Shown: positions 22,538 to 37,360 of the stretch, piece by piece
How the letters are laid out: each line of letters begins with the position of its first letter
Numbering within the stretch: position 1 is the first letter of the stretch
Origin: Sunxiuqinia sp.
GTDB taxonomy: Bacteria > Bacteroidota > Bacteroidia > Bacteroidales > Prolixibacteraceae
Direction: 5' to 3'
Length of the DNA: 37,360 nucleotides
Assembly (NCBI GenBank): GCA_024635605.1
Contig: JAGXIR010000090.1
Coordinates: forward strand, 1-37,360
The notes under the pieces: model-generated
What the model was told of the DNA's origin: nothing
The model's database searches: none
What the model saw: the letters and a program-made list of their open reading frames with translations, nothing else
Made by a program: the position numbers and the translations under genes

Positions 22538-22670
22538 CCCGATAAATTCATGGATTTCTCCGACGATTGATTTTAGCTTAACAGATTGGAAATAAGCTTA
22601 TAAGTTATTGAGCAGGATTCCAGGGAGATAAGCTCAATCTTGCTAAAGAGAAAGCTTGCCGGGCTCATCA

Positions 22671-22766
22671 TAAGTGCTGCGAATCATTTAGTGTCGTGTT
22701 TCGAGCCTTTAACAATTTGTGATAGAGGCGATACAGAGAATATTAAATAGGTCCGTGACCTTAATT
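22671..22766 (-). repeat. 96-bp dispersed element, copy 1 (inverted relative to copy 2 at 34637-34732)
   Basis: Reverse complement aligns without gaps to 34637-34732 with 10 mismatches in 96 positions by hand alignment; similarity ends abruptly on both sides. Confidence 0.9.
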
Positions 22767-22783
22767 GAAAGTCGACTGGAAAA

Positions 22784-22839
22784 TGAATAGATTGTTTGCG
22801 CGATTATACCTGGATGGAATTGTGAAAACAATCTATTCA
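22784..22839. promoter_or_regulatory. 14-bp perfect inverted repeat upstream of GH38-like gene (candidate operator or RNA hairpin)
   Basis: TGAATAGATTGTTT (22784-22797) and AAACAATCTATTCA (22826-22839), 28-bp spacer, about 75 bp upstream of the CDS. Confidence 0.6.
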
Positions 22840-22915
22840 ATGAATAAGCCGGTCAAACGTGAAATAGAGCTGGTAGAAATCTAATAACTAAGAAATAGCA
22901 GAAGTTTTGTATTCG

Positions 22916-25453
22916 ATGAAAGCATATCGCTGTTTAATGCTAAGCATTTTACTAATCTTCACTGTTGCTGCCCGGTCGCAAACAGCTTGGTTTGCCGACG
23001 GGTATCACGGTGGGGTTTACGGTCATTATCCGATGTGGCAGGTTCGTTTTATGCTGGACGAGCTGAATGAAAATCCAGGCTGGAAAATCAACCTGGAGAT
23101 AGAACCGGAGACATGGGATACAGTAAATGTAAAAGATCCAGAGAACTTTAAAGCATTTCAGGAGTATTTCAAAACGAAGGGACGATTTGGCCGGATCGAA
23201 TTTGTGAATCCCACGTGGGCACAGCCCTATTGCTATAATATTTCCGGTGAAAGTATCATCCGCCAGTTCGCTTACGGAATTGACAAAACATTGGAGTATT
23301 TTCCAGATGCCACATTTATAACTTATGCGGTTGAAGAACCTTGCTTTACCAGCTCTCTACCTCAGATTCTGAAAGGTTTTGGCTATAAGTATGCCGTGTT
23401 GCGTAACCCAAATACTTGCTGGGGCGGATATACCTCCGCTTTCGGAAAGGATCTGGTCAACTGGATTGGTCCGGATGGTACTTCCATTCCTGCTGTTCCG
23501 AGGTACGCTTGCGAAGAGCTGTCAATGCACTCAACCTGGCAAACCGAATCTTGGACAAACTCAAACAGCTTTATCGAAAAATGTTTTGAGAATGGGATTC
23601 AATATCCCGTTGGTATGACTTTTCAGGATGCCGGCTGGGACGGTGGTCCCTGGGGAAATCAATACAAACCAACGGAATACACGACCTGGACCGAATACTT
23701 GGATCTGGTTGTCGGCAAGCTTGAAGCAACCGATTGGAAATTTTCACTTGAAGATATAAAACCGGGTCTTGTATGGGGCGCACAAGTGTTGCAAAAGATT
23801 GCGCAGGAGGTTCGGGTGAGTGAAAACAAGATGGTGATGGCTGAAAAAGTAGCTGCTTTCGATTATCTTTTAAACGGAACAGAATGGCCAGCTACAGATT
23901 TTGCAGAAGCATGGCGGACACTCATGCTGGCTCAGCATCACGACTGCTGGATTGTACCTTATAACGGACGTCCGGGACATACGTGGGCCGACAATGTGAC
24001 CCGCTGGACAAATCATTCGAACGAAATTGCTGATTCAAAATTCAATACCTTCTTTGATGAGACTATTCCTGAAAGTTCAAAAAATATTCGCGTGTTCAAC
24101 ACGCTGGGATCAGCCCGCACCGAACTTGTTGCCCTGAATCTGCCGGAAGGTTTCTCTAAAACCGGATATCAGGTTTCAAATGCAGCCGCCAAAACCGTAC
24201 CATCGCAACTTGTTGTTGATGAAAATGGAACAACGGTACTCTATTTTGAAGCGACAGCTCCGGCAATGGGATATGCCACATACAGCCTTAAGGCAGCTAA
24301 AAGCAAAAAGGTTTCTTCGGCTGCCACGCAGTTAGCCGACGGCACTTATCGGATTGAGACAGCATTCTATTCAGCCATTATCGATCCGAAAAAAGGTGGA
24401 ACAATTACCAGTTTGATTGATAAAAAAAATGCTAAACGGCAATTGGTTGACGATGGTTGTCTGTTAAATAATCTGCACGGGTATTTTTATCAAGAAAAAA
24501 AATATCATGAAGGGGCAAGCGGTCCTGCCAGAGTAAGCATTGCAGAAGATGGACAATTATTTGTTCAACTGAAAGTTGAAAGCCAAATTGCCGGCAATCG
24601 TTATATTCAATTGATCTCTTTCCGCAAGAACTCGCCTCTGATCGACTTTAATTTAACAATTGATTGGGATGGACAACCTGGAATTGGAGCTTACGATCAG
24701 AGTGATGATTATAAAGCAGAAGATCGTGAAAAAGCATTTTACAATGACGAGTATAAACTCCACCTGGAGTTTCCGTTGGCTGAAGTTGGTGACAGACTGT
24801 TCAAAAACGCTCCTTTTGATGTGTGTGAAACAAAACTGGATAATACCGTTTACTCAAGCTGGGATAAAATTAAGCATAACGTGATTTTGAATTGGGTGGA
24901 TGTTGCCAACCAGACCAACGATTACGGCGTTGCTCTTTTTACAGACCACACTACCTCCTATTTGCAAACAGATGATTTAACGCTGGGTTTGACAGTGCAG
25001 TATGCCGGATGGGCTTTGTGGGGACGAAATTATCGCGTACATGGCCCTACACAATTGAAATACGCTTTGTTACCTCATGCCTCTAATTGGGAAAAAGCTT
25101 CGATTGAATTTGCGAGCAGTGCCTGGAACGAGCCGCTGATTGGCCGTTTTGTCCACGCCGGGAAAGATCCGTCTGAGTTTAATTTACTGGAAGTTGCCGA
25201 TAAAAACCTTCAGGTTTCGTCTGTTACCGTTGATGGCGAAGATCTGCTGGTCCGCTTCTATAATTCATCACAGAATGCCGATCAGGAAGTCCGCTGGAAC
25301 TGTCGTGCTGATATTCTGGAATTGGTTGACCTGAATGGAAATACAATTGCTCCGGTTCAAGCAGACAAAGACAAGAATGGCATGATCACAAAATTAAGTC
25401 TTCCGCAGTTTGGTTTTCAAACCATTAAACTCCAAAAAGTTAAGTTAAAATAA
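22916..25453 (+). CDS. Secreted glycoside hydrolase family 38-like (alpha-mannosidase type) protein
   Basis: ORF track uses TTG at 22907; ATG at 22916 gives signal peptide MKAYRCLMLSILLIFTVAARSQ; 'WFADGYHGGVYGHYPMWQVRFMLDEL' and 'AWRTLMLAQHHDCWIVPYNG' resemble the GH38 catalytic region and 'AQHHD' zinc-site motif. Confidence 0.82.
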   Translation: MKAYRCLMLSILLIFTVAARSQTAWFADGYHGGVYGHYPMWQVRFMLDELNENPGWKINLEIEPETWDTVNVKDPENFKAFQEYFKTKGRFGRIEFVNPTWAQPYCYNISGESIIRQFAYGIDKTLEYFPDATFITYAVEEPCFTSSLPQILKGFGYKYAVLRNPNTCWGGYTSAFGKDLVNWIGPDGTSIPAVPRYACEELSMHSTWQTESWTNSNSFIEKCFENGIQYPVGMTFQDAGWDGGPWGNQYKPTEYTTWTEYLDLVVGKLEATDWKFSLEDIKPGLVWGAQVLQKIAQEVRVSENKMVMAEKVAAFDYLLNGTEWPATDFAEAWRTLMLAQHHDCWIVPYNGRPGHTWADNVTRWTNHSNEIADSKFNTFFDETIPESSKNIRVFNTLGSARTELVALNLPEGFSKTGYQVSNAAAKTVPSQLVVDENGTTVLYFEATAPAMGYATYSLKAAKSKKVSSAATQLADGTYRIETAFYSAIIDPKKGGTITSLIDKKNAKRQLVDDGCLLNNLHGYFYQEKKYHEGASGPARVSIAEDGQLFVQLKVESQIAGNRYIQLISFRKNSPLIDFNLTIDWDGQPGIGAYDQSDDYKAEDREKAFYNDEYKLHLEFPLAEVGDRLFKNAPFDVCETKLDNTVYSSWDKIKHNVILNWVDVANQTNDYGVALFTDHTTSYLQTDDLTLGLTVQYAGWALWGRNYRVHGPTQLKYALLPHASNWEKASIEFASSAWNEPLIGRFVHAGKDPSEFNLLEVADKNLQVSSVTVDGEDLLVRFYNSSQNADQEVRWNCRADILELVDLNGNTIAPVQADKDKNGMITKLSLPQFGFQTIKLQKVKLK

Positions 25454-25552
25454 GATGATCAGCGTATTGAAAGATGCCCCTTAGGCATCGCTCAACTTAA
25501 TATTCAACTTTTCGTTGCCTACCCTATTTCCCACAAGCTGAGGCAAAGCCAA

Positions 25553-25570
25553 TTTTAACCCAACTTGCAG
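25553..25570 (+). repeat. IS left terminal inverted repeat
   Basis: Perfect reverse complement of 27723-27740. Confidence 0.92.
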
Positions 25571-25751
25571 CCTTAGCCCCATAAATCGAGAAAAATCGGG
25601 TAAAAATGCAGGTTTTTTTGGATAAAAATGAAAGCGATAAATGTTTTCATCGTGTAACTGTCTGATATTCAAATGTAGCATTCTCCTGCGTTTCATTTGT
25701 AGTACACAGGGGGGTATTGGTTGTCAGTTCGTTACATGGTAACTTACTGCC

Positions 25752-27722
25752 ATGTATTTCAAGGTATCCATGCGCACCAATCCCGCCACGGGAGCCTATT
25801 CGGGCTATTACCGGTTAGTGGAGAGTTATCGCGACCATCGCGACCGGGTATGCCACCGGACTATTTTGAATGCGGGTTATCTTGACCAGCTGACCACCGG
25901 CCAGCTCAACCTGGTACAGAAGATACTTACCGCCAAAGTTGCCAACCACGACAACCCCCTGTTTGAACTTCCGTACACCGATGATGCACCAGTGGTGCGC
26001 TATGTTGATGATTTTTTCAAGCGGATGGTTGCCGAAAAACGCATCGATGTGCTGGTTGAAAAAAAGGATGGAAAGACATCTAAAAACGGTAAAGACCTGC
26101 AACTGATCGACCTGAACAGCATCCGGAACAAAGATGTTCGGGAGATTGGGGCCGAATGGTTGTCGTACCAGGCTATGCGCCAGTTGCAGATTGCACCTTT
26201 TTTAGAAAGCCTCGGATGGGGCGGGGACCAGGTCAGATTGGCCCAGACGCACATCATCAGCCGGGCAGTTTACCCTGCCTCGGAGCTGGAAACGACGCGG
26301 TGGATCAGGGAAAACTCGGCCGTGTGTGAGATCACCGGGTTCGACATCCAGCAGGTTACCAAAGACCGGCTGTATGCCATCTCGAAAAAACTGTATGCCG
26401 AAAAGGAAGCGCTGGAGCAACACTTGTCGGTGCGCACCAACGAGTTGTTCGACATCCAGGACAAAATAATACTTTACGACCTGACCAACACTTATTTTGA
26501 AGGCCGGAAACAGGGGAGCAAACTGGCCAAATTCGGGCGCAGCAAGGAAAAACGCAGCGATGCCAAATTGGTTGTGTTGGGGCTGGTGATCAATCCTGAA
26601 GGTTTTATCAAATACTCCTCGATACTGGAAGGGAACATGGCCGACAGCAAAACACTGGAGGGGATGATAGGCAAATTGCGCATCAAAACCTCCTTCTCGG
26701 CCCGTAAAGCCCTGATCGTGATAGATGCGGGCATTGCCACCGAAGAAAACCTGAAGATGATACTGGACAATGGCTACGATTACCTGTGCGTGGGCCGTTC
26801 AAATTTAAAAACATACAACATCCAAGCCGGTGCGGCCACCGTTTCGGTAACCGACAACAGGAAACAGAAAATTGAGCTGTGCCGGGTCAATTCTGGCCGC
26901 AATACGGATTATTGCCTGAAAGTCGAAAGTCACACCAAAGAGATGAAAGAACGTTCGATGAACGGGCAGTTCCGCTCCCGCTTCGAGGCCGGCCTGCAAC
27001 AAATAGCCGACAGCCTGACCAAAAAAGGTGGCGTAAAACAAGAGGACAAAGTCCACCAGCGCATTGGGAGGTTAAAGCAAAAATACCCATCTGTCGGGCG
27101 ATACTTCGACATCGAAACTGAGGTAAGCGAAGAAGCTGCGCCAAAACGGAAAAAGAAGGACACTGGACCGCTAAAAGAGAAAAACCGGGTTGTAACTTCC
27201 GTCAAATGGGCTGTCAAAGAAGGGGTTGATATCAATGCCCGGAGCGGGGTTTACTTTCTGCGCACATCGCTCCAGGCCAACAGTGAAGAAAATGTATGGC
27301 AATTTTACAATACGATTCGCGAGATCGAGGCATGTTTTCGGGTCCTGAAGACCGACCTTGACCTTCGACCCATTTACCATCAAAAAGATGAAAACACGAT
27401 GGCACACCTGCATCTGGGTTTATTGGCATACTGGCTTGTAAACACCGTTCGCCATCAACTAAAACAAGAAGGCATTCGTTCCGGATGGCGCGAGATTGTA
27501 AGAACCATGAACACGCAAAAGGCTGGGACAACCTTGGCACAAAACAATCACGAAGAAGTGATTATGATACGCCGGTGTTCAGAGCCAAACCAACAGGTGC
27601 GAAAACTATATGATGCCCTGAAATACAAATATGCGCCATTCGTAAAACGAAAATCCGTAGTACACAAATCTGAACTCGAAAATTGCCAATTCATTGAAAG
27701 GCAAGAATTTCATTCAGATTAA
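25752..27722 (+). CDS. IS1634 family transposase (DDE, IS4-like fold)
   Basis: 656 aa; 'YDLTNTYFEGRKQGSKLAKFGRSKEKRSDAKLVVLGLVINPEGFIKYSSILEGNMADSKTLEGMI', 'ARKALIVIDAGIATEENL', 'FYNTIREIEACFRVLKTDLDLRPIYHQ' typical of this class; stop abuts the right TIR. Confidence 0.93.
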   Translation: MYFKVSMRTNPATGAYSGYYRLVESYRDHRDRVCHRTILNAGYLDQLTTGQLNLVQKILTAKVANHDNPLFELPYTDDAPVVRYVDDFFKRMVAEKRIDVLVEKKDGKTSKNGKDLQLIDLNSIRNKDVREIGAEWLSYQAMRQLQIAPFLESLGWGGDQVRLAQTHIISRAVYPASELETTRWIRENSAVCEITGFDIQQVTKDRLYAISKKLYAEKEALEQHLSVRTNELFDIQDKIILYDLTNTYFEGRKQGSKLAKFGRSKEKRSDAKLVVLGLVINPEGFIKYSSILEGNMADSKTLEGMIGKLRIKTSFSARKALIVIDAGIATEENLKMILDNGYDYLCVGRSNLKTYNIQAGAATVSVTDNRKQKIELCRVNSGRNTDYCLKVESHTKEMKERSMNGQFRSRFEAGLQQIADSLTKKGGVKQEDKVHQRIGRLKQKYPSVGRYFDIETEVSEEAAPKRKKKDTGPLKEKNRVVTSVKWAVKEGVDINARSGVYFLRTSLQANSEENVWQFYNTIREIEACFRVLKTDLDLRPIYHQKDENTMAHLHLGLLAYWLVNTVRHQLKQEGIRSGWREIVRTMNTQKAGTTLAQNNHEEVIMIRRCSEPNQQVRKLYDALKYKYAPFVKRKSVVHKSELENCQFIERQEFHSD

Positions 27723-27740
27723 CTGCAAGTTGGGTTAAAA
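27723..27740 (-). repeat. IS right terminal inverted repeat
   Basis: Perfect reverse complement of 25553-25570. Confidence 0.92.
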
Positions 27741-27760
27741 GAAACGATTCACCTCCCAAA

Positions 27761-27827
27761 TGCGTGAATTGTGTAACTTTTTTATAAAGTTGTGTAACAC
27801 TTATCTTGACCTAATTGTAAATCTTTG
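27761..27827 (+). promoter_or_regulatory. Shared operator/promoter block, copy A (upstream of AraC-HK-RR operon)
   Basis: TGCGTGAAT-TGTGTAA-N14-TGTGTAA (27791-27797)-N26-TTTG (27824-27827); spacing identical in copies B and C. Confidence 0.8.
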
Positions 27828-27850
27828 TGGAGCTTTTCAAAAAAAATAAA

Positions 27851-28444
27851 TTGAAACTCTATATCAAATACATGGTAAGCAACCGCTGCAAGATAGTGGT
27901 AAAAGAAGACCTCAAAAGGCTTGGACTACACTTCATTATGATCGATTTAGGCGAGGTTGAAATTATGGAGAACATCTCTGAAGAACAGCGCGAGCAGATA
28001 AAAATTGCTTTGCTCAATTCAGGATTTGAACTATTGGATAGTAAAAGAGCTGTTTTGATTGAAAAGATTAAAAATATAATCATCGAAATGGTCCACCATT
28101 CAGATGAATTAATCAAAATTAACTTTTCCAACTTCTTAAGTGAAAAATTAAACCACGATTACACCTATCTCGCCAACTTATTTTCAGCAATACAAGGAAT
28201 GACGATTGAGCAATTCATTATCGCGCATAAAATTGAGCGAATTAAAGAATTGATTATTTACGGCGAGCTGAACATTACAGAGATTGCATGGAAGATGAAT
28301 TACAGCAGTGTGGCCCATTTATCCAATCAATTTAAGAAAATGACGGGCCTTACTCCTTCGCACTTTAAAAAGATGAAGGATCAAAGACGTAATCCGATTG
28401 AAGATATCGGAATTTTAACGGATAACGCTGGCGCTAAAAACTAG
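27851..28444 (+). CDS. AraC family helix-turn-helix transcriptional regulator
   Basis: C-terminal 'YTYLANLFSAIQGMTIEQFIIAHKIERIKELIIYGELNITEIAWKMNYSSVAHLSNQFKKMTGLTPSHFKK' is a classic AraC double HTH. Start tentatively moved to TTG 27851 (MKLYIKYMVSNRCK…) because the listed GTG at 27827 overlaps the promoter TTTG; ATG 27872 is the alternative. Confidence 0.88.
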   Translation: MKLYIKYMVSNRCKIVVKEDLKRLGLHFIMIDLGEVEIMENISEEQREQIKIALLNSGFELLDSKRAVLIEKIKNIIIEMVHHSDELIKINFSNFLSEKLNHDYTYLANLFSAIQGMTIEQFIIAHKIERIKELIIYGELNITEIAWKMNYSSVAHLSNQFKKMTGLTPSHFKKMKDQRRNPIEDIGILTDNAGAKN

Positions 28445-28449
28445 ATAAA

Positions 28450-31047
28450 ATGGAACGAACGAGGTCGCACCAATCACAATACGCCAGCAGTTTGATAGAA
28501 GCCAGTCTGGATCCACTGATTACCATCAGCACAGAAGGTAAAATCATGGATATGAACCATGCAATGGTGGACATTACCGGCATAAAACGTAAAAATCTGA
28601 TCGGCTCTGATTTCTGCGATTATTTCACCGAACCAAAAAAGGCACAGAAAATATATCAGGAAGTGTTTGCAGATGGATCGGTGAGTAATTTCCCACTTAC
28701 GTTTTGTCATGAAAACGGGAAATTGACCGATGTATTATTCAACGGATCGGTTTATAAAGATGAAGATGGACAAGTGTTGGGTGCGGTTGTAGTGGCACGC
28801 GATAATGCTGAACAAAAATGGGCCAAAGAATTGCAGATCGCCAACAAAGAGCTTGTTTTGCAAAACAAGGAAACTGCAAAACGCACGGCAGAGCTAATCA
28901 TTGCCAACAAAGAACTTGCCTTTCAAAATAAGGAAAAGAAAAAACGCGCGAAAGAATTAATCAGAGCTGAAATAGAACTTGACTATCAGAGCGAAGAGAA
29001 AGAAAACCAATCAGTTGAAAATAAAGCACTTGAAGCATTAAGCTATTCTTTAAAATTAGCTTCAAAGTATTCGCTCAGCTTGATTGAAGCAAGTCGCGAC
29101 CCCTTGGTTGTGATTAGCCCTAAGGGCAAAATCACCGATATGAACGAGGCATTGGTAAACATTACCGGGGTATCGCGCAATGAACTGAAAGAAACCGACT
29201 TCCACGATTATTTTACTGAGCCACAAAAAGCACGTCAGGTTTATCAGGAAGTATTTGCAAAAGAATCGGTTGCCGACTCGCCACTAACGCTTCGCCACGC
29301 GAATGGAAAACTGACCGATGTTCTGTTTAACGGTTCGGTTTACACCGACGACCGGGGAAATGTGTTGGGCGCGGTGATTGTTGCCCGCGATGTGACAGAG
29401 CAAAAACGGATTGCAAATGAATTAACCGAAGCCATTGTATTTGCCGAACTGGCTGTTGATATTGCTGAAGATGCCAAAATAAAAGCTGAGCGCGCCGCAC
29501 GGATTGCCGAAAATGCGGTGAAAGCCAAACAGCAGTTTTTGTCGAATATGAGCCATGAAATCCGGACCCCCATGAATGCAATTATCGGATTCACGAAAGT
29601 ATTGCTAAAGACCGGAATGACTGCCAAACAAAAGGAATACCTGGCAGCCATTAAGCTGAGTGGCGATGCATTAATTGTGTTGATCAACGATATCCTCGAT
29701 CTGGCAAAAGTGGATGCCGGGAAAATGACTTTCGAACAAACCCCCTTCAAAATGGGGGCTTCTATTTCGGCCATGCTTCATTTGTTTGAAACAAAAATTC
29801 ACGAAAAAAATCTAAAATTGGTAACGGAATACGGCAAGAATATTCCTGAAGTTTTGGTTGGCGACCCAGTCCGCCTGCACCAGATTATTTTAAACCTGGT
29901 GGGCAATGCGGTTAAATTTACAACCAAAGGGAAAATTACTGTTGATGTAAGTTTACTAAGCGAAGATGAGAAAACAGCAACCGTCCAATTTTCAGTTACT
30001 GATACTGGAATTGGGATAGCGGAAGAAAAAATAGAAAAAATATTTGAGAACTTTCAGCAGGCAACAAGCGGAACTTCGCGCATCTATGGAGGAACCGGCT
30101 TAGGCTTGGCCATTGTTAAACAACTGGTTGAATCACAAGGAGGAACTATTACAGTAAAAAGCGCAGTTGGCCAGGGCTCAACATTTAGCTTTGTACTAAG
30201 TTTCCTGAAAACTACTGAAGATGCTGAATTAGATTTAGAGATAATTGAATTGGACAGCGAACTTGAAAATATAACTGTCCTGGTCGTTGAAGACATCGTT
30301 CTCAACCAACTACTGATGAGAACCTTGCTTGAAGATTTCGGATTTGCACTCGATATTGCCGAGAATGGAAAAATTGCCATTGAAAAGCTACGGGCTAAAA
30401 CCTACGATGTTATTTTAATGGACTTGCAGATGCCCGAAATGAATGGGTTTGATGCAACTGATTACATCCGCAACACCATGCATTTGCAAATCCCGATCAT
30501 CGCCCTAACAGCCGATGTGACCACCGTTGATTTGGCAAAATGCAAGGCAGTTGGAATGGATGATTACATCGCCAAGCCAGTTGACGAACGCTTATTGTAT
30601 AGTAAAATAATTGCATTCCTTAAAAAACCAACTCCAAAAAAACACAGCGAATCGCAAGCGGAAATCTTCGATGAAGTTATCGTAAATAGCTGTATTGATT
30701 TAGCGTATTTAAATGCTCGTACCAAATCGCATCCGAAACTAATGATGGAAATGATTTCGGCTTACCTGGAACAAACACCGTCCTTAATTTCAAACATGAA
30801 AGAGAGCTTGATCGACAAAGACTGGAACCTACTGTACGCTTCCGTTCATAAAATGATCCCTTCTTTTTCAATCATGGGTATGGGAATCGATTCCGAAAAC
30901 ATGGCAAAAAGAGTTCAGGAATATGCCAGCACACAGAAACAAACAGAAGAAATATCCGAGCTGGCATTGCAACTTGAAACCACTTGCACACAGGCATGTA
31001 ACGAATTAAAAGTAGAGTTAAACCGGATAAAAACCACCTTATCATGA
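28450..31047 (+). CDS. Hybrid sensor histidine kinase: PAS-PAS-HisKA-HATPase-REC-HPt
   Basis: Two tandem near-duplicate PAS domains; 'QFLSNMSHEIRTPMNAIIGFTKVLL' H-box; 'QIILNLVGNAVKFTTKG', 'DTGIGIAEEKIEKIFENF', 'YGGTGLGLAIVKQL'; receiver 'DVILMDLQMPEMNGFDATDYIR'; C-terminal HPt-like 'ASVHKMIPSFSIMG'. Confidence 0.96.
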   Translation: MERTRSHQSQYASSLIEASLDPLITISTEGKIMDMNHAMVDITGIKRKNLIGSDFCDYFTEPKKAQKIYQEVFADGSVSNFPLTFCHENGKLTDVLFNGSVYKDEDGQVLGAVVVARDNAEQKWAKELQIANKELVLQNKETAKRTAELIIANKELAFQNKEKKKRAKELIRAEIELDYQSEEKENQSVENKALEALSYSLKLASKYSLSLIEASRDPLVVISPKGKITDMNEALVNITGVSRNELKETDFHDYFTEPQKARQVYQEVFAKESVADSPLTLRHANGKLTDVLFNGSVYTDDRGNVLGAVIVARDVTEQKRIANELTEAIVFAELAVDIAEDAKIKAERAARIAENAVKAKQQFLSNMSHEIRTPMNAIIGFTKVLLKTGMTAKQKEYLAAIKLSGDALIVLINDILDLAKVDAGKMTFEQTPFKMGASISAMLHLFETKIHEKNLKLVTEYGKNIPEVLVGDPVRLHQIILNLVGNAVKFTTKGKITVDVSLLSEDEKTATVQFSVTDTGIGIAEEKIEKIFENFQQATSGTSRIYGGTGLGLAIVKQLVESQGGTITVKSAVGQGSTFSFVLSFLKTTEDAELDLEIIELDSELENITVLVVEDIVLNQLLMRTLLEDFGFALDIAENGKIAIEKLRAKTYDVILMDLQMPEMNGFDATDYIRNTMHLQIPIIALTADVTTVDLAKCKAVGMDDYIAKPVDERLLYSKIIAFLKKPTPKKHSESQAEIFDEVIVNSCIDLAYLNARTKSHPKLMMEMISAYLEQTPSLISNMKESLIDKDWNLLYASVHKMIPSFSIMGMGIDSENMAKRVQEYASTQKQTEEISELALQLETTCTQACNELKVELNRIKTTLS

Positions 31048-31475
31048 ACAAAAATAAAATAAAACTTTTCCTGGTCGATGACGATGCTGTGTTCCTAAAA
31101 CTACTGGAAATCGAATTCATGGAACAAGCTGATCTTGATATTGAAACCTTTGCTACCGGTGAGCTTTGTATTGAAAGTTTATCGCACCATCCTGATGTGA
31201 TCATTTTAGATTATTTTCTGGACGGGGTTGACCGGGACGCGATCAATGGGATCGACACACTGGATAAGATCAAAGCTTTCAACCTGGATATTCCGGTGAT
31301 CATGTTATCTTCTCAGGACAAAATTGACGTAGCCATCGACTGTATGCACCACAAGGCAACTGATTATGTTGTTAAAAGCGAAACCGCCTTCCTGCGCTTG
31401 AAAAAAATCATCTCAACCATTTTAGAAACTCAAAAACTCGAAAAGCAGTTAAACTGGTACATGGATCGAATGTGA
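31044..31475 (+). CDS. Single-domain response regulator (CheY-like receiver)
   Basis: 'KLFLVDDDAVFLKLLE', 'DVIILDYFLDG', 'VIMLSSQD', 'DYVVKSE'; ATGA overlap with the kinase stop. Confidence 0.93.
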   Translation: MNKNKIKLFLVDDDAVFLKLLEIEFMEQADLDIETFATGELCIESLSHHPDVIILDYFLDGVDRDAINGIDTLDKIKAFNLDIPVIMLSSQDKIDVAIDCMHHKATDYVVKSETAFLRLKKIISTILETQKLEKQLNWYMDRM

Positions 31476-31550
31476 TCAATCTATGTTTAGCGACCTACTT
31501 AAAACCTTTGGAATATAGGGGTTTTCTTATTTGAACCATCGACCTGATAA

Positions 31551-31617
31551 TGTGTGAATGATGTAATTATTTTCCAAAATTGTGTAATGCTTTTGGGTTT
31601 GAATTGGCTGACCTTTG
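31551..31617 (+). promoter_or_regulatory. Shared operator/promoter block, copy B
   Basis: TGTGTGAAT-GATGTAA-N14-TGTGTAA (31581-31587)-N26-TTTG (31614-31617). Confidence 0.8.
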
Positions 31618-31654
31618 AAAGGTGAAAATACATTCACAAATTAAATTTATCCAA

Positions 31655-32020
31655 ATGAGAAAAATAACACTGACCTTAATGGCAGCATTCCTGCTGCTTT
31701 TATTTTCGCCAGACCAATTGAGAGCTGACACAGAAACCGCCACGATTCCAAACAAGGTTGAAACCGAAACAAGCACAACCGAGACTGTTAATTCAGCAGA
31801 AGCCAATGCCCGGATCGACCGGTTAATGGAAATAAAAGTGATGGATGTGTCAACACTAACTGCTTCTGAAAAGCGGGTGCTTCGCAAAGAAGTTCGCTCA
31901 ATAAGATCTGAGATGAAAGCCAATGGCGAAACTGCTGTTGCCGATAGCCGAAATAATGGAATTTACCTTTCAGCGGGAGGACTAATCATTGTCATACTAC
32001 TGCTTGTCCTTTTGCTTTAA
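31655..32020 (+). CDS. Small exported/membrane protein with signal peptide and C-terminal TM helix
   Basis: Listed ORF begins 31622; second start MRKITLTLMAAFLLLLFSPDQLRA gives a clean signal peptide; C-terminus 'GIYLSAGGLIIVILLLVLLL' is hydrophobic. Confidence 0.8.
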   Translation: MRKITLTLMAAFLLLLFSPDQLRADTETATIPNKVETETSTTETVNSAEANARIDRLMEIKVMDVSTLTASEKRVLRKEVRSIRSEMKANGETAVADSRNNGIYLSAGGLIIVILLLVLLL

Positions 32021-32069
32021 GTATTGAAGTGAAGATTGATTTTTGTATAAACCAAAAAAATAAATAGTC

Positions 32070-32225
32070 ATGGGAAATTTACTCTATATCGTTGCCGTTG
32101 TATTGATCATTTTGTGGTTGGTCGGATTTGTTGGCTACAATGCTGGAGGGATCATACACATTTTGCTGGTTATTGCCATCATTGCAGTCATCCTGAGAGT
32201 GATTCAGGGACGAAGGGTACTTTAA
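32070..32225 (+). CDS. lmo0937 family-like small membrane protein (51 aa; below the ORF-track cutoff)
   Basis: Read from sequence: ATG 32070 to TAA 32225, MGNLLYIVAVVLIILWLVGFVGYNAGGIIHILLVIAIIAVILRVIQGRRVL; two hydrophobic segments with the G..GGIIHILLVIAI pattern. Confidence 0.85.
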   Translation: MGNLLYIVAVVLIILWLVGFVGYNAGGIIHILLVIAIIAVILRVIQGRRVL

Positions 32226-32226
32226 G

Positions 32227-32436
32227 ATGAAGACCTTAGGGATTGTCCTTATCGGACTCGGAATAATTATGATGGTATATACCGGATTCAATTATGTAAC
32301 CAAAGAAAAGGTGGTTGACTTGGGCCCGATTGAAATAAACTCTGAAAAAAACCATCCGGTTCAGTGGTCGCCAATCGTTGGCTTAGTACTAATTGTTGGA
32401 GGCATTGTTGTTGTTGCTGTTGATAAGAAGAAATAA
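32227..32436 (+). CDS. Small two-TM membrane protein, 69 aa, unknown function
   Basis: MKTLGIVLIGLGIIMMVYTGFNYVTKEKVVDLGPIEINSEKNHPVQWSPIVGLVLIVGGIVVVAVDKKK; starts 1 nt after the preceding stop. Confidence 0.82.
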   Translation: MKTLGIVLIGLGIIMMVYTGFNYVTKEKVVDLGPIEINSEKNHPVQWSPIVGLVLIVGGIVVVAVDKKK

Positions 32437-32471
32437 CAGAAAACTTCAACCAAAATATTTCCAAATTATTC

Positions 32472-32525
32472 GATTCATGAATGCCGTATGTGGATTATTT
32501 ACAATCCATTACACATTCATGAATC
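32472..32525. repeat. Nested inverted repeat in intergenic region
   Basis: Outer arms GATTCATGAATG (32472-32483) / CATTCATGAATC (32514-32525), perfect 12 bp; inner arms TGGATT (32491-32496) / AATCCA (32503-32508). Confidence 0.75.
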
Positions 32526-32564
32526 ATTTAATATCGTTTCACTAACTTTTAAAAATTAGTTCAT

Positions 32565-32750
32565 ATGCCTTTATTATCTATTCTGATTGTAATCATTGTT
32601 GTGGGTGTTCTTTTGTGGATTATCAATTCATTCATTCCAATGGATCGTAAGATCAAACAAATTTTCAATATTGTCGTTGTGATTGCCCTTGTTATTTGGC
32701 TTCTCAAAGCGTTTGGAGTGTTCACATACCTGACGAACATCCAGATTTAA
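32565..32750 (+). CDS. Thivi_2564 family-like small membrane protein (61 aa)
   Basis: MPLLSILIVIIVVGVLLWIINSFIPMDRKIKQIFNIVVVIALVIWLLKAFGVF: conserved 'LLWIINSFIPMD..IK.I.N.VVVI.L..WLL' pattern. Confidence 0.88.
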   Translation: MPLLSILIVIIVVGVLLWIINSFIPMDRKIKQIFNIVVVIALVIWLLKAFGVFTYLTNIQI

Positions 32751-32782
32751 ATCAGGCATCCTCCTACGAAAAAATAAAAACA

Positions 32783-32977
32783 ATGAATCTTAAAAGAATC
32801 TTTGGCACTGTTCTTACAGTACTTGGAATAGGTGGACTTATTTATGCTGCCGTGTTGTTCGTGAATGGCGCCGGTGAATCAAAAGACCTTAAAGCACTTG
32901 TTATTTATGGGATACTCGGTTTTGTGTTCTTTATTGCAGGTATTAGCTTAATACGCACAACAAAAGATGAATCATAG
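32783..32977 (+). CDS. Small two-TM membrane protein, 64 aa, unknown function
   Basis: MNLKRIFGTVLTVLGIGGLIYAAVLFVNGAGESKDLKALVIYGILGFVFFIAGISLIRTTKDES; the longer listed ORF overlaps the preceding gene. Confidence 0.8.
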   Translation: MNLKRIFGTVLTVLGIGGLIYAAVLFVNGAGESKDLKALVIYGILGFVFFIAGISLIRTTKDES

Positions 32978-33040
32978 AATTGCTATTCAATGTAAACTAA
33001 AAAACTGTTTAAAATTTGAACAGTTTAAAAAAACCTGTTC

Positions 33041-34642
33041 ATGCAAGTAAACGTACTCAGAAAAAATTTGATATTTACGCCCGACCCTTCCAGAATAATT
33101 GCCCGGTTTCTATTTTTAAATGATGAACGATCGGCTAATCTCATCCGGAAGGTGCTGGCTATGCCCGAGAAGGAAGTCAACATTGCCATAAGCCAGTTAC
33201 TTAGGGGGTATTCGAGGCGGCACCGGAATATTTCACGAATATTTGAGAAGCATTTTGCCCGTCTGGCTCCCGTATTTGAAAAGATTGAAATCAATGAAGA
33301 AGATCTGAGCCCTGCTCAGAAAATACTGATCGGTTCATATTTCACGATGGAATATTCCATTGAATCAGCAGCATTTTTTAATCCATCCGTCGTCGAAGAT
33401 CCTGACCAATCGGGAATAATGGACAACGAAAAAAGGGTCATCTTAAGTTTCCGGGCAACTGGCGAAGGCCATATTTCGTCCATTGTTTTCCGCACCGGAA
33501 TTCTTGACAAAAACAATGACCTGAGTGTTGAACCCGTGGGAAAGATGCTGGCCGAGGCCGCGGTAATTAAACGGAATTTCTACGATAAAAAGACTTTTCA
33601 GGAAAAATTAGCTGAAATGAATAAAGCTGATAATAATATTCCTGCTGCTAGTCTTGACGAACATAGCCAAAACCCTGACCAGGAACAGGAGAATGTAGTT
33701 CCTCCAGTCATTTTTGACCGTCCCAAGGCCATCCAAAAGTCTGAAAATGTCGTTTCCGCTGATTTCATTCTGGATAAGCTTGGAGAAAATTTCACCTATG
33801 GTGAACTAATGAAGAACCTCTCCCTTGCAATAAAAAGCCCTGATATTTCGGAAGATAAAATTAAAGTATTGAACCAGTTAATGAGTTTGGCTTCATCGCA
33901 TTACGAGGTTAATTTCTCCATTGATTCGGCCATTTCTGAGCGGGTTATTTTCCCCGTTTCGGCAACAGAGCAAAAAGGGATTGAAGATGCCCGCTTTGTC
34001 AAATTCACCGATGACAATGGCGAAATAGCCTACTATGCCACCTATACCGCTTATGATGGGGTTGCCATTCTGCCAAAGTTGATCAAAACAACTGATTTTT
34101 ATAATTTCAAGATTTTGCCGATCAACGGCGAGCTCGCCCGCAACAAAGGAATGGCTTTGTTTCCGCGGAAGATAAGAGGTAAATACGCCATGTTGTGCCG
34201 GATGGACGCTGTAAACAACTACATCGCTTATTCTGACAATATCAATATTTGGCGTGAAGCAAAACTCACGCAACAGCCTAAATATCCCTGGGATTTGGTG
34301 CAAATGGGCAATGCAGGATCGCCAATCGAAACGGAAGACGGCTGGCTGGTAATTACCCATGCCGTTGGACCCATGCGAGAGTATAAACTGGGGGCATCCT
34401 TGTTTGACCTGGAGAATCCGGAAATTGAAATTGGCAGGTTGAAGGACCCGTTGATGGCACCCAATGAATCAGAAAGAGAAGGTTATGTACCAAATGTAAT
34501 TTACTCCTGTGGTTCAATTATTCATAACAACGAGCTGATTATTCCTTATGCCATGTCCGACCATTCATCAACATACGCAACAGTTAATCTCAGGGAATTG
34601 CTCGACGAATTGAAGGCTTCAGGTAAATCTAACCAGAATTAA
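33041..34642 (+). CDS. Glycoside hydrolase family 130-like (mannoside phosphorylase/glycosidase type) protein
   Basis: 533 aa; C-terminal half 'DARFVKFTDDNGEIAYYATYTAYDG', 'GELARNKGMALFPRKIRGKYAMLCRMD', 'GNAGSPIETEDGWLVITHAVGPMREYKLGASLFDLENP' resembles GH130 five-bladed propeller enzymes. Confidence 0.85.
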   Translation: MQVNVLRKNLIFTPDPSRIIARFLFLNDERSANLIRKVLAMPEKEVNIAISQLLRGYSRRHRNISRIFEKHFARLAPVFEKIEINEEDLSPAQKILIGSYFTMEYSIESAAFFNPSVVEDPDQSGIMDNEKRVILSFRATGEGHISSIVFRTGILDKNNDLSVEPVGKMLAEAAVIKRNFYDKKTFQEKLAEMNKADNNIPAASLDEHSQNPDQEQENVVPPVIFDRPKAIQKSENVVSADFILDKLGENFTYGELMKNLSLAIKSPDISEDKIKVLNQLMSLASSHYEVNFSIDSAISERVIFPVSATEQKGIEDARFVKFTDDNGEIAYYATYTAYDGVAILPKLIKTTDFYNFKILPINGELARNKGMALFPRKIRGKYAMLCRMDAVNNYIAYSDNINIWREAKLTQQPKYPWDLVQMGNAGSPIETEDGWLVITHAVGPMREYKLGASLFDLENPEIEIGRLKDPLMAPNESEREGYVPNVIYSCGSIIHNNELIIPYAMSDHSSTYATVNLRELLDELKASGKSNQN

Positions 34643-34732
34643 GGTCACGGACCTATTTGATATTTTCGGTTTCGCTTCTATCACAAATTGTTAAAGACTC
34701 GAAACATGACAATAAATTATTCGCAGTACTTA
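34637..34732 (+). repeat. 96-bp dispersed element, copy 2
   Basis: About 90% identical (86/96 by hand) to the reverse complement of 22671-22766; overlaps the GH130-like stop codon. Confidence 0.9.
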
Positions 34733-34743
34733 AATACACCAAA

Positions 34744-34950
34744 ATGAAAACGTCAGAATTTAAAGGAAACTTGAGCATAGAGAAAGCCAAACTTAAACAG
34801 AAGTTTGCAAGTTTAACCGATGATGATCTGTTGCTTGAAGAAGGCAGGGCAGAAGAAATATCTGGAAAACATCAGTCCATGCTTTTCCAAACGGAAGAAG
34901 AATTGGACAAAATTATCTCAACGCTATCAGACGGCGACAGAAATTTATAG
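34744..34950 (+). CDS. CsbD-like small stress protein (68 aa)
   Basis: MKTSEFKGNLSIEKAKLKQKFASLTDDDLLLEEGRAEEISGKHQSMLFQTEEELDKIIS…: CsbD-like 'KAKLKQKFA.LTDDDL…G..EE..G..Q' pattern; start chosen at the internal ATG. Confidence 0.8.
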   Translation: MKTSEFKGNLSIEKAKLKQKFASLTDDDLLLEEGRAEEISGKHQSMLFQTEEELDKIISTLSDGDRNL

Positions 34951-35022
34951 TACCTGCTGAAAATAGTCAGTGGATTACAAATTAAGTGATCAGAACAATT
35001 AATTATCGCATTTTAAAAGTTC

Positions 35023-35107
35023 ACTCACCCCAAGCCGCCTGAAGGCGATTTCTCCCCTCTCTACATGTAGAGAGGGGAAGAGCAAGCATTGCGAGCGAGG
35101 GGTGAGT
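35023..35107. repeat. Palindromic, multi-arm intergenic element (REP/MITE-like)
   Basis: Outer arms ACTCACCCC (35023-35031) / GGGGTGAGT (35099-35107); central perfect 26-bp palindrome TCCCCTCTCTACATGTAGAGAGGGGA (35053-35078); side hairpin CGCC-TGAA-GGCG. Confidence 0.85.
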
Positions 35108-35307
35108 CAAAGAATTATAAATTACGAATACAACAGTTTATTATTCATACGACTTAGCAAGGGACTTTAGATACTCCTTGTTGCATTTCAGATAAGTTGT
35201 TTCCCTCTACGATTTTGAAACCCGAGCTGGCTATTTCAAAACCAACCAAACCCTTAAAGAATCGAATGCAAATAAAAAATTTCTTGCACGCGTAGCACTA
35301 CTTATAA

Positions 35308-35374
35308 TGTGTGAATAATGCAATACTTAATCAGAATTGTGTAACGCTTTTCGAGGCCAGTTAGCTCACCTTTG
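35308..35374 (+). promoter_or_regulatory. Shared operator/promoter block, copy C (upstream of CsbD-like gene)
   Basis: TGTGTGAAT-AATGCAA-N14-TGTGTAA (35338-35344)-N26-TTTG (35371-35374). Confidence 0.8.
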
Positions 35375-35409
35375 TAAGGTGAAAATAGGGTAATTTGAAT
35401 TTTAAAAAG

Positions 35410-35598
35410 ATGACTGAAACAGGAGCAAACGGTAATTGGGAAAAAAGCAAAGACAAGCTTAAGCAAAAATTTGCAGACTTAACAAACAATGAGCAGACGC
35501 TTTTGGAAGGTAAAAAGGAGGAAGTGATTGCCAGGCTTCAGCTAAAACTTGGTAAAACAAAAGAAGAATTGCAAAAAATTATTACAAGACTTTTATGA
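35410..35598 (+). CDS. CsbD-like small stress protein, second paralogue (62 aa)
   Basis: MTETGANGNWEKSKDKLKQKFADLTNNEQTLLEGKKEEVIARLQLKLGKTKEELQKIITRLL; same pattern as 34744-34950. Confidence 0.82.
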   Translation: MTETGANGNWEKSKDKLKQKFADLTNNEQTLLEGKKEEVIARLQLKLGKTKEELQKIITRLL

Positions 35599-35776
35599 TC
35601 ATTAACACCTTTTACACCAATACAAATATGCATTTCAACCGAAAGTGACGCACGTGTCCGGCATTCTGGCCAACAGGTTGTTACACCAACGGAAAAAATT
35701 GCGAATTAATTGGTATCTGAAAAATTGAGTTACTTATAATCATTGCATTATTAATTATCATTTAAAAATAAAAATT

Positions 35777-36049
35777 ATGAATTCAGGAAATGTATTATTA
35801 ACCGTGTTGGCAGGCGCAGCCGCAGGAGCATTGGCAGGAGTTTTATTCGCACCACATAAAGGTAAAGTTACCCGCAAAAAAATAGCTAGGCAAAGTGAGG
35901 CTCTTACCGACGAAGTAAAAGTGAAAATCAACGAATTGATGAACGACCTCTCTAAAAGGGTTGAACAGGCAAAGGAAGATGTTTCGGAATTTGCTGAACA
36001 GAAATTGCACAAAACACATGCAACAAAAAAAGAGGTGACATCTGTTTAG
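35777..36049 (+). CDS. YtxH domain-containing protein
   Basis: 'VLLTVLAGAAAGALAGVLFAPHKGKVTRKKI' is the YtxH TM plus 'LFAP.KG…R..I' motif; amphipathic C-terminal helix. Confidence 0.92.
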   Translation: MNSGNVLLTVLAGAAAGALAGVLFAPHKGKVTRKKIARQSEALTDEVKVKINELMNDLSKRVEQAKEDVSEFAEQKLHKTHATKKEVTSV

Positions 36050-36078
36050 AAAAAGAAAAATCATACACATCACAACTC

Positions 36079-36152
36079 TTGGGCCCGTGCCTGGAAACAT
36101 TAAACCTGAATACCTTCTATTTTACTGATTTCAGGCACGGGCCCAATTTTTT
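36079..36152 (+). terminator. Intrinsic terminator with 15-bp perfect GC-rich stem and 38-nt loop
   Basis: TTGGGCCCGTGCCTG (36079-36093) / CAGGCACGGGCCCAA (36132-36146) followed by TTTTTT. Confidence 0.75.
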
Positions 36153-36180
36153 GATTTGAACAAATACGGTCATAGAAACC

Positions 36181-36522
36181 ATGGAAGACAATACGAATTT
36201 AATAGAATCGCTAATAGAAAGAGCTACTGACTACGGACAAACAAGCATTGAATTAGCAAAGCTAAAAGCCTTGGATCAAACGACACAAGTGATGTCATCA
36301 TTCCTTTCCAATGCTGTTGTCCTGATCATTATTTCGCTCTTTGTGCTTTTTCTGAATTTTGGATTGGCAATTTGGATTGGCCACATTCTGGGAGAAATCT
36401 ATTATGGCTTTTTTGCCGTGGCCGGATTTTATGGTATGACTGCAATTTTGGTCTATTTATTTATGCGTAAATGGATAAAAAGGACTGTTGGCAACACTTT
36501 TATTAAACAGGTGCTAAAATAA
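36181..36522 (+). CDS. Phage holin family-like membrane protein (putative Actinobacteriophage holin superfamily type)
   Basis: 113 aa; N-terminal amphipathic region 'LIESLIERATDYGQTSIELAKLKALDQTTQVMSSFLSN' and two TM hairpins, as in bacterial 'phage holin family' stress-locus proteins. Confidence 0.75.
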   Translation: MEDNTNLIESLIERATDYGQTSIELAKLKALDQTTQVMSSFLSNAVVLIIISLFVLFLNFGLAIWIGHILGEIYYGFFAVAGFYGMTAILVYLFMRKWIKRTVGNTFIKQVLK

Positions 36523-36528
36523 AACCCC

Positions 36529-36927
36529 ATGAAACCGATAACCACCACCGACGAACTTAAAAATGCCATTCACCTCCTGGAAACAGAGCACACACTTAAA
36601 GGACAGCAACTGAAGGAACAGTTACTGCTCACCTACGAGAGTTTAAAACCGGTCAACCTGATTAAAGGCGCATTGTCCGATGTCGCTTCATCGCCCTATT
36701 TGACCAATAATATTTTGGGGACGACCGTGGGACTGGCATCCGGATATCTCTCGAAAGTGATAATCGTTGCCGGGTCTGGCAGTAAGATCAGGAGGCTTTT
36801 GGGCTTGATCCTTCAGTTTGGCGTGACCAATGTGGTAGCACAACACGCTGGCACGATTAAATCAGTCGGTCAGTCTATTCTCCAACGTTTTCGCAGCAGT
36901 AAAGAAGCAAATCCTGAAACGCCGTGA
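36529..36927 (+). CDS. Conserved hypothetical protein, 132 aa
   Basis: Closely spaced with upstream holin-like gene and overlapping downstream AI-2E gene (GTGA); two hydrophobic segments. Confidence 0.75.
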   Translation: MKPITTTDELKNAIHLLETEHTLKGQQLKEQLLLTYESLKPVNLIKGALSDVASSPYLTNNILGTTVGLASGYLSKVIIVAGSGSKIRRLLGLILQFGVTNVVAQHAGTIKSVGQSILQRFRSSKEANPETP

Positions 36928-37360
36928 AGGATAATGACAAAATACTGAAGCTTCCGTTTTATGCCAAAGCATCGTTGCTCTTAATCGGGCTGTATGTTTT
37001 TATCACCATGTTATCGATCGGACGAAGTATTATTGTCCCCTTGGTTTTCGCTGTTATCATTGCCATTGTCCTCCATCCTGTCGTCAACTTTTTTGTACGG
37101 ATGAGGATGAAAAGGGTCATCGCCATCATCATCACCATCTTCCTTACTTTTCTGATCGTCGCTTCCCTTGCAGCTCTGATCATATCGCGGATGAACCAGT
37201 TTGGGGAATCATGGCCCATCATGGTCGATCGGTTCACGGCTATGCTCAACGAAACCATCTCCAGATTATCAGTGTATACCGATATCAGTCCGGGAGTAAT
37301 CAATGAATACATTGAAAAGGGAAAAGATGAGATGCTCAACATCGGGAAAGCTGCCATTGG
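36924..37360 (+). CDS. AI-2E family transporter (PerM/YdiK type), N-terminal part, truncated at window end
   Basis: GTG 36924 reads VKDNDKILKLPFYAKASLLLIGLYVFITMLSIGRSIIVPLVFAVIIAIVLHPVVNFFVRMRMKRVIAIIITIFLTFLIVASLAALIISRMNQFGESWPIM… open to the window edge; AI-2E hallmark N-terminus. Confidence 0.88.
   Translation, partial: MKDNDKILKLPFYAKASLLLIGLYVFITMLSIGRSIIVPLVFAVIIAIVLHPVVNFFVRMRMKRVIAIIITIFLTFLIVASLAALIISRMNQFGESWPIMVDRFTAMLNETISRLSVYTDISPGVINEYIEKGKDEMLNIGKAAI

Follow-up and report, generated by a model that had tools for sequence, protein, structure and literature searches.

An inverted pair of short repeats in Sunxiuqinia, probable insertions of a Bacteroidales-wide family of miniature transposons

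The inverted pair and its surroundings

The window, by which we mean the whole stretch of 37,360 nucleotides that was analysed, is contig C158 of a fragmented Sunxiuqinia genome (G000; 3.08 Mb, 71% complete), and its features are collected in Table 1. A repeat search identifies an inverted pair, 22671-22766 and 34637-34732, matching over 96 nt without gaps (90% complementary, 10 mismatches, spacing 11,870 nt). The match has an E-value of 4e-31 by BLAST within its own genome, far above chance, confirming the pair described in the earlier note, and we agree with that note that the flanks of the two copies are dissimilar and that neither copy is a gene. The unit common to other copies is 93 nt long including the TA at each end, running from TAAGGTC to ACTTA, and the three further nucleotides of the match (AAT) are absent from most other copies. 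This unit is of constant length, below 200 bp and without a useful open reading frame (ORF), in keeping with the size and non-coding character of miniature transposable elements, or MITEs (PMC2229807, PMC3049150), and it shares their A+T richness (61–67% in Sunxiuqinia copies and about 70–75% in the genomes G251 and G279). A candidate third copy in the window, at 32521-32560, was not confirmed by the covariance model (CM).

Table 1 Features of the window, with the evidence for each. TIR, terminal inverted repeat.
Feature	Position	Strand	Basis
MITE copy 1 (TA + 89-bp element + TA)	22671..22763	-	CM score 101 bits, E=4e-20
5' terminal hairpin of copy 1	22749..22761	-	Sequence, folding
Insertion sequence (IS) with DDE_Tnp_1 transposase (656 aa) and perfect 18-bp TIRs TTTTAACCCAACTTGCAG; looks intact	25553..27740	+	Domain and TIRs
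GH130 (beta-mannooligosaccharide phosphorylase-like) gene, adjoining copy 2	33041..34642	+	Pfam PF04041, E=5e-29
MITE copy 2 (TA + 89-bp element + TA)	34640..34732	+	CM score 107 bits, E=1e-21
Left TA of copy 2, also TA of the GH130 stop codon TAA; putative target duplication	34640..34641	+	Analogy with sequenced empty sites
TAA stop of GH130-like gene (TA + first A of copy 2)	34640..34642	+	Sequence
5' terminal hairpin of copy 2, AGGTC-ACG-GACCT	34642..34654	+	Folding; compensatory changes in G251 copies
Right TA of copy 2	34731..34732	+	Sequence
Gene for a small CsbD-like protein, beginning 11 nt downstream of copy 2	34744..34950	+	Pfam PF05532, E=4e-6, below curated cut-off

Comparison with Sunxiuqinia indica (G003, contig C35) shows that window positions 27749-32834 and 35332-37360 are collinear with a single stretch of that genome, in the same orientation and spanning the position of copy 2; only 32835-35331, holding the GH130 gene, copy 2 and the CsbD-like gene, is missing from it. 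Left of 22537 the window matches other loci in relatives, and the IS lies within 22538-27748, where synteny with S. indica breaks. S. indica has no GH130 gene beside its CsbD-like locus and, of the two tandem CsbD-like paralogues in the window (the second at 35410-35598), it has the second only.

Several further features of the region deserve mention. A second repeated motif, TGTGTGAATnATGTAA ... AATTGTGTAACgCTTTT, occurs at 27766-27800, 31544-31630 and 35301-35387 (the last two 77% alike), preceding genes for an AraC-type regulator and a CsbD-like protein as well as a small gene; it recurs near genes in G003 and G006 (loci L115, L116 and L118) and looks like a promoter motif belonging to a stress regulon. 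The hybrid histidine kinase gene contains a tandem 63-bp duplication (76%) at 28837-28962, a lysine- and glutamate-rich and probably coiled-coil stretch, and between genes at 36079-36146 a 26-nt inverted repeat with a 16-nt loop resembles a terminator.

The inverted arrangement of the copies around accessory-looking genes is what would suggest that they delimit a 12-kb accessory segment that is mobile or can invert, a reading that we regard as very improbable. S. indica is collinear in the same orientation right through the position of copy 2, so that no inversion has been fixed between the copies, and the comparison with its contig C35 reveals neither movement nor inversion of the segment as a unit. 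Copies are, moreover, scattered across the genome, and those of the pair belong to different sub-lineages: copy 1 clusters with copies on contigs C90 and C5 of the same genome (support 85/83) and copy 2 falls in the main cluster of the same tree, which is otherwise without resolution. Collinearity and separate sub-lineages together indicate two separate insertions, the intervening genes not being carried by the copies, and the ‘12-kb accessory segment’ is merely the space between them.

Filled and empty sites in the genus

The earlier note named, among the findings that would speak against its reading, that the pair should be the only two copies in the genome. There are in fact five full copies in G000, as well as several partial or old ones (BLAST and covariance model), and three congeners hold 10, 3 and 8 copies with 79–98% identity to copy 2; each of the remaining three has at most a single old copy. 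Viral contigs and plasmids gave no match to the element.

The joined flanks of 12 copies were searched against seven genomes of the genus, and the orthologous sites retrieved were aligned to the filled sites. Nine filled/empty pairs (L026, L019, L034, L002, L013, L031, L036, L030 and L029, each compared with its orthologous empty site in G004, G005 (S. dokdonensis) or G000) differ cleanly by 91 bp at one TA. At L026, for example, G004 reads GGGATT-TA-GTTC where the filled site reads GGGATT-TA-[AGGTCACGG...CACTACT]-TA-GTTC, and the insertion turns the TatD stop codon from TAG to TAA, leaving the C-terminus unchanged. Each insertion therefore adds 91 bp at a single target TA, corresponding to an 89-bp element plus a TA target duplication or, equivalently, to a 91-bp insertion behind a TA. 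No corresponding empty site was found for copy 2 in this comparison.

These pairs directly support the suggestion of a non-autonomous mobile element, and show that it moved after the Sunxiuqinia species split. Dispersed copies with filled/empty polymorphism, a terminal TA and a target site duplication are properties of a MITE, and insertion into TA with TA duplication is that of IS630/Tc1-mariner-type elements. An ancient, neutral and immobile repeat, such as an old segmental duplication, could account for the old diverged copies, but the nine clean pairs and the near-identical recent copies leave it with a negligible probability. We consider it highly probable that the members of the inverted pair were inserted independently of each other, and that both belong to a family of very small non-autonomous transposons found across Bacteroidales.

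Copies across Bacteroidales and their position at stop codons

A first covariance model, built from 20 copies, detected diverged copies within the same taxonomic family, in Gaoshiqia (10; G. sediminis, G028) and in G063 (5), and a second, built from 27 copies, gave matches in further families of Bacteroidales, with 147 of 150 scored candidates matching in G279 and 73 of 150 in G251. A G251 model finds 114 copies in 1.2 Mb of this single-contig 4.3-Mb genome, two 400-kb sets outside the model training yielding 37 and 35 copies, which extrapolates to about 400 copies per genome. Copies across families stay close to 93 nt and retain both the hairpin AGGTC-NNN-GACCT and a terminal TACTTA, and to judge from these matches the family reaches further than the original finding in the window suggests, apparently throughout Bacteroidales. 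Exact matches to an 18-base left motif in Alphaproteobacteria, Microgenomates, Ruminococcaceae and Dysgonomonas were left unused, since chance alone should give about seven in the collection searched.

Among the copies inspected, several in G251 are nested in or adjoin one another (L260, L288 and L295), and one (L274:7935-8060) is split by a different palindromic repeat, TGTAGGAGTGAACC...GGTCTGCCCCTACCA. Two Gaoshiqia loci (L107:1501 and L109:1501) carry a head-only motif, TAAGGTCACGGACCTRTTT, exactly on the stop codon of two ECF-sigma-like genes; these sites stand before a probable anti-sigma gene and have no matching tail.

The element is confined to intergenic DNA: none of the 190 copies in G251 and G279 lies inside an ORF of at least 90 aa, while such ORFs cover 87–89% of that DNA. 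Where the left neighbour is a gene on the same strand, the first TA of the element coincides with the TA of its stop codon in 18 of 51 cases in G251 and 18 of 37 in G279, no other offset within 30 nt exceeding 2, so that the left end is strongly concentrated on stop-codon TAs compared with the positions around them. The ORFs were called mechanically and single offsets may be in error, but a spike at zero offset cannot arise in this way. The right end lies on a stop codon less often (5/46 in G251 and 1/32 in G279; Fisher P=0.008 and 2e-5, respectively). Measured against random TAs of the same gaps, the left end is on a stop in 8 cases against 1.9 expected in G279 (P=0.00015) and in 4 against 2.5 in G251, the right end in 4 against 1.6 in G251. 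In Sunxiuqinia, a stop TA is occupied at 5 of 21 sites, where 1.8 would be expected (P=0.015), and a sixth (L013) is recognised through its empty site. Because both ends of the element begin with AG, and TA followed by A is TAA, a TAA or TAG stop is preserved as TAA and the end of the host gene is unchanged.

The left end folds into a 5' hairpin, AGGTCNNNGACCT or in general AGGTC-NNN-GACCT, with compensatory changes: pair 5-13 in G251 changes from G-C to U-A in five copies and to C-G in one, and its covariation score is above that of all shuffles. Alignment folding reveals no further conserved structure, and a second central hairpin that appears in single folds has no support from it. Both element ends share an AG tip and a WTTTATTG box at +14 to +21. 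Overall terminal similarity amounts to 15/24 in G279 (P=0.001), 13/24 in the 27-copy consensus (P=0.005) and 12/24 in G251 (P=0.06), and is not significant in the Sunxiuqinia consensus (10/24, P=0.085) or in G063 (P=0.23), suggesting that the terminal inverted repeats of the element are weak. In the flanks, T is preferred before the left TA (0.60–0.66), and A after the right TA less strongly (0.46–0.53).

In both G251 (P=0.0008) and G279 (P=0.03), GC skew and the orientation of copies are anti-correlated. The copies in G251 lie opposite to positive skew by 78 to 36, mostly through one block (35 to 7), the blocks covering 0.2-0.4, 0.9-1.3, 2.1-2.3, 3.3-3.5 and 3.7-3.9 Mb (loci L261-L280 and L301-L340). 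The bias was not confirmed in new blocks of this genome (20 to 15; 42 to 30 without the first block, P=0.19), and a replication-strand bias is only a lead.

Mobilisation and relation to known systems

The TA duplication and bipartite ends point to an IS630/Tc1-mariner-like mobiliser, and a trans-acting, TA-targeting transposase is the simplest reading of the sequences. Such an enzyme would recognise both ends through the AG tip and the WTTTATTG box and would insert the element into TA, as IS630/Tc1-mariner enzymes do. The surviving insertions would be the harmless ones, most of them on a stop codon, shortly after one or in a short intergenic gap of an operon. No cognate transposase with matching ends was found in the same genome. 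The IS630 DDE domain (PF13358) is absent from the carriers G003, G004, G005 and G028 and present only as a fragment in G000, and G002, which is without the MITE, carries IS630s with other ends. Among the matches listed, no element with both ends and a transposase appears in the 1.2 Mb of G251 or the 0.32 Mb of G279, the ORFs between both ends being housekeeping genes only; nor are there convincing right-end-only copies that would hint at a longer autonomous element. The IS in the window was rejected as a partner, its 18-bp TIRs being unrelated.

A symmetric cut-and-paste element would not be expected to show the left/right asymmetry at stop codons or the weak orientation bias with GC skew; the polarity would be explained if selection favoured a hairpin behind the stop or if insertion itself were polar. 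A rival reading is movement as single-stranded DNA by a Y1/HUH transposase of the IS200/IS605 or RAYT type that recognises the left hairpin. Insertion would then be 3' of TTA, the right end ...CTTA would be the right cleavage site, and the ‘duplicated TA’ would be no duplication. The presence of a hairpin with compensatory changes at the 5' end only, a T preference in the left flank that exceeds the A preference in the right, and the anti-correlation with skew are all consistent with this. Targets of Y1 transposases are 4–5 nt long, whereas conservation of the target is here limited to TA(A), or T-TA by flank composition; both ends carry AG...WTTTATTG in register in G279, and the orientation bias failed to recur in the new G251 blocks. 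We consider single-stranded transfer unlikely.

The element may also act as an RNA or regulatory element, the alternative raised in the earlier note: it has a conserved 5' terminal hairpin with compensatory changes, but no match in Rfam 15, where no family exceeded its gathering threshold. If the element were primarily a functional RNA under selection, for instance a hairpin in the 3'-UTR that serves as an attenuator or stabilises the mRNA behind stop codons, with its mobility incidental, this would account for the constancy of the hairpin and of the 93-nt length from one Bacteroidales family to another, for the polarity seen at stop codons and for the T-rich stretch that follows the hairpin. 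Its presence varies among close species, however, while the genes on either side are retained, its copies point either way with respect to co-directional genes (32 to 26 and 26 to 20), and the structure predicted from alignments is confined to the 5' hairpin; together with the Rfam result, this makes such a primary function quite improbable. A combination may also be imagined, in which an order-wide transposon family has become adapted to stop codons, entering their TA preferentially by the hairpin end, restoring TAA either way and placing immediately behind hundreds of genes a conserved hairpin that affects transcript ends, its polar entry being brought about by some enzyme through coupling to replication or transcription. 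This is a speculative possibility, on the unlikely side.

Taking the element as a MITE, it can be set beside known small repeats. Palindromic elements of the REP/RAYT and IS200/IS605-derived types are likewise dispersed intergenic hairpin elements in hundreds of copies; the present one differs in having TA at both ends, a 93-nt unit and no conserved tetranucleotide target. Correia elements (CREE/NEMIS) of Neisseria are genus-restricted, and ERIC of enterobacteria forms one long hairpin. The Correia elements resemble ours as small TA-flanked MITEs in many copies, but have long TIRs with 24 bp of contiguous pairs (PMC2229807), which ours lacks. ERIC (127 bp), which can lie at the 3' ends of genes (PMC10969869), is comparable as a family-wide, small, intergenic TA-flanked repeat in tens to hundreds of copies; it is unrelated in sequence and host, and our element has instead a short terminal hairpin. 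RUP of Streptococcus pneumoniae (107 bp) has TIRs like those of IS630-Spn1, its known probable mobiliser (PMC2229807, PMC3049150), and is similar in being about 100 bp, non-coding, A+T-rich and intergenic, with TA ends, a TA target and no transposase of its own. Compared with RUP, our element has weak TIRs, no partner found, an order-wide spread, a one-sided hairpin and a preference for stop codons. QMITE2 of Coxiella, of unrelated sequence, is a MITE located mainly in 3' untranslated regions (PMC5896051, cited in PMC10969869), and that review does not report it on the stop codon itself (PMC10969869).

The element is thus a MITE of the RUP/Correia/ERIC kind (PMC2229807, PMC3049150, PMC10969869), being small, A+T-rich and intergenic, with TA at its ends and a duplicated target, and is distinct from these in its weak TIRs, one-sided hairpin, constant length across an order, lack of a partner among those searched and exact, polar coincidence with stop codons. 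Literature searches, including the text of the hairpin sequence, returned no description of it, which is not proof that none exists. Small, gene-less orphan elements in hundreds of copies can shape many bacterial transcript 3' ends and yet are hard to see. The family described here, with its empty sites in S. indica, S. dokdonensis and Gaoshiqia, offers a clean system for studying how such elements persist without a visible transposase, and for asking whether a hairpin behind a stop codon is tolerated or used.
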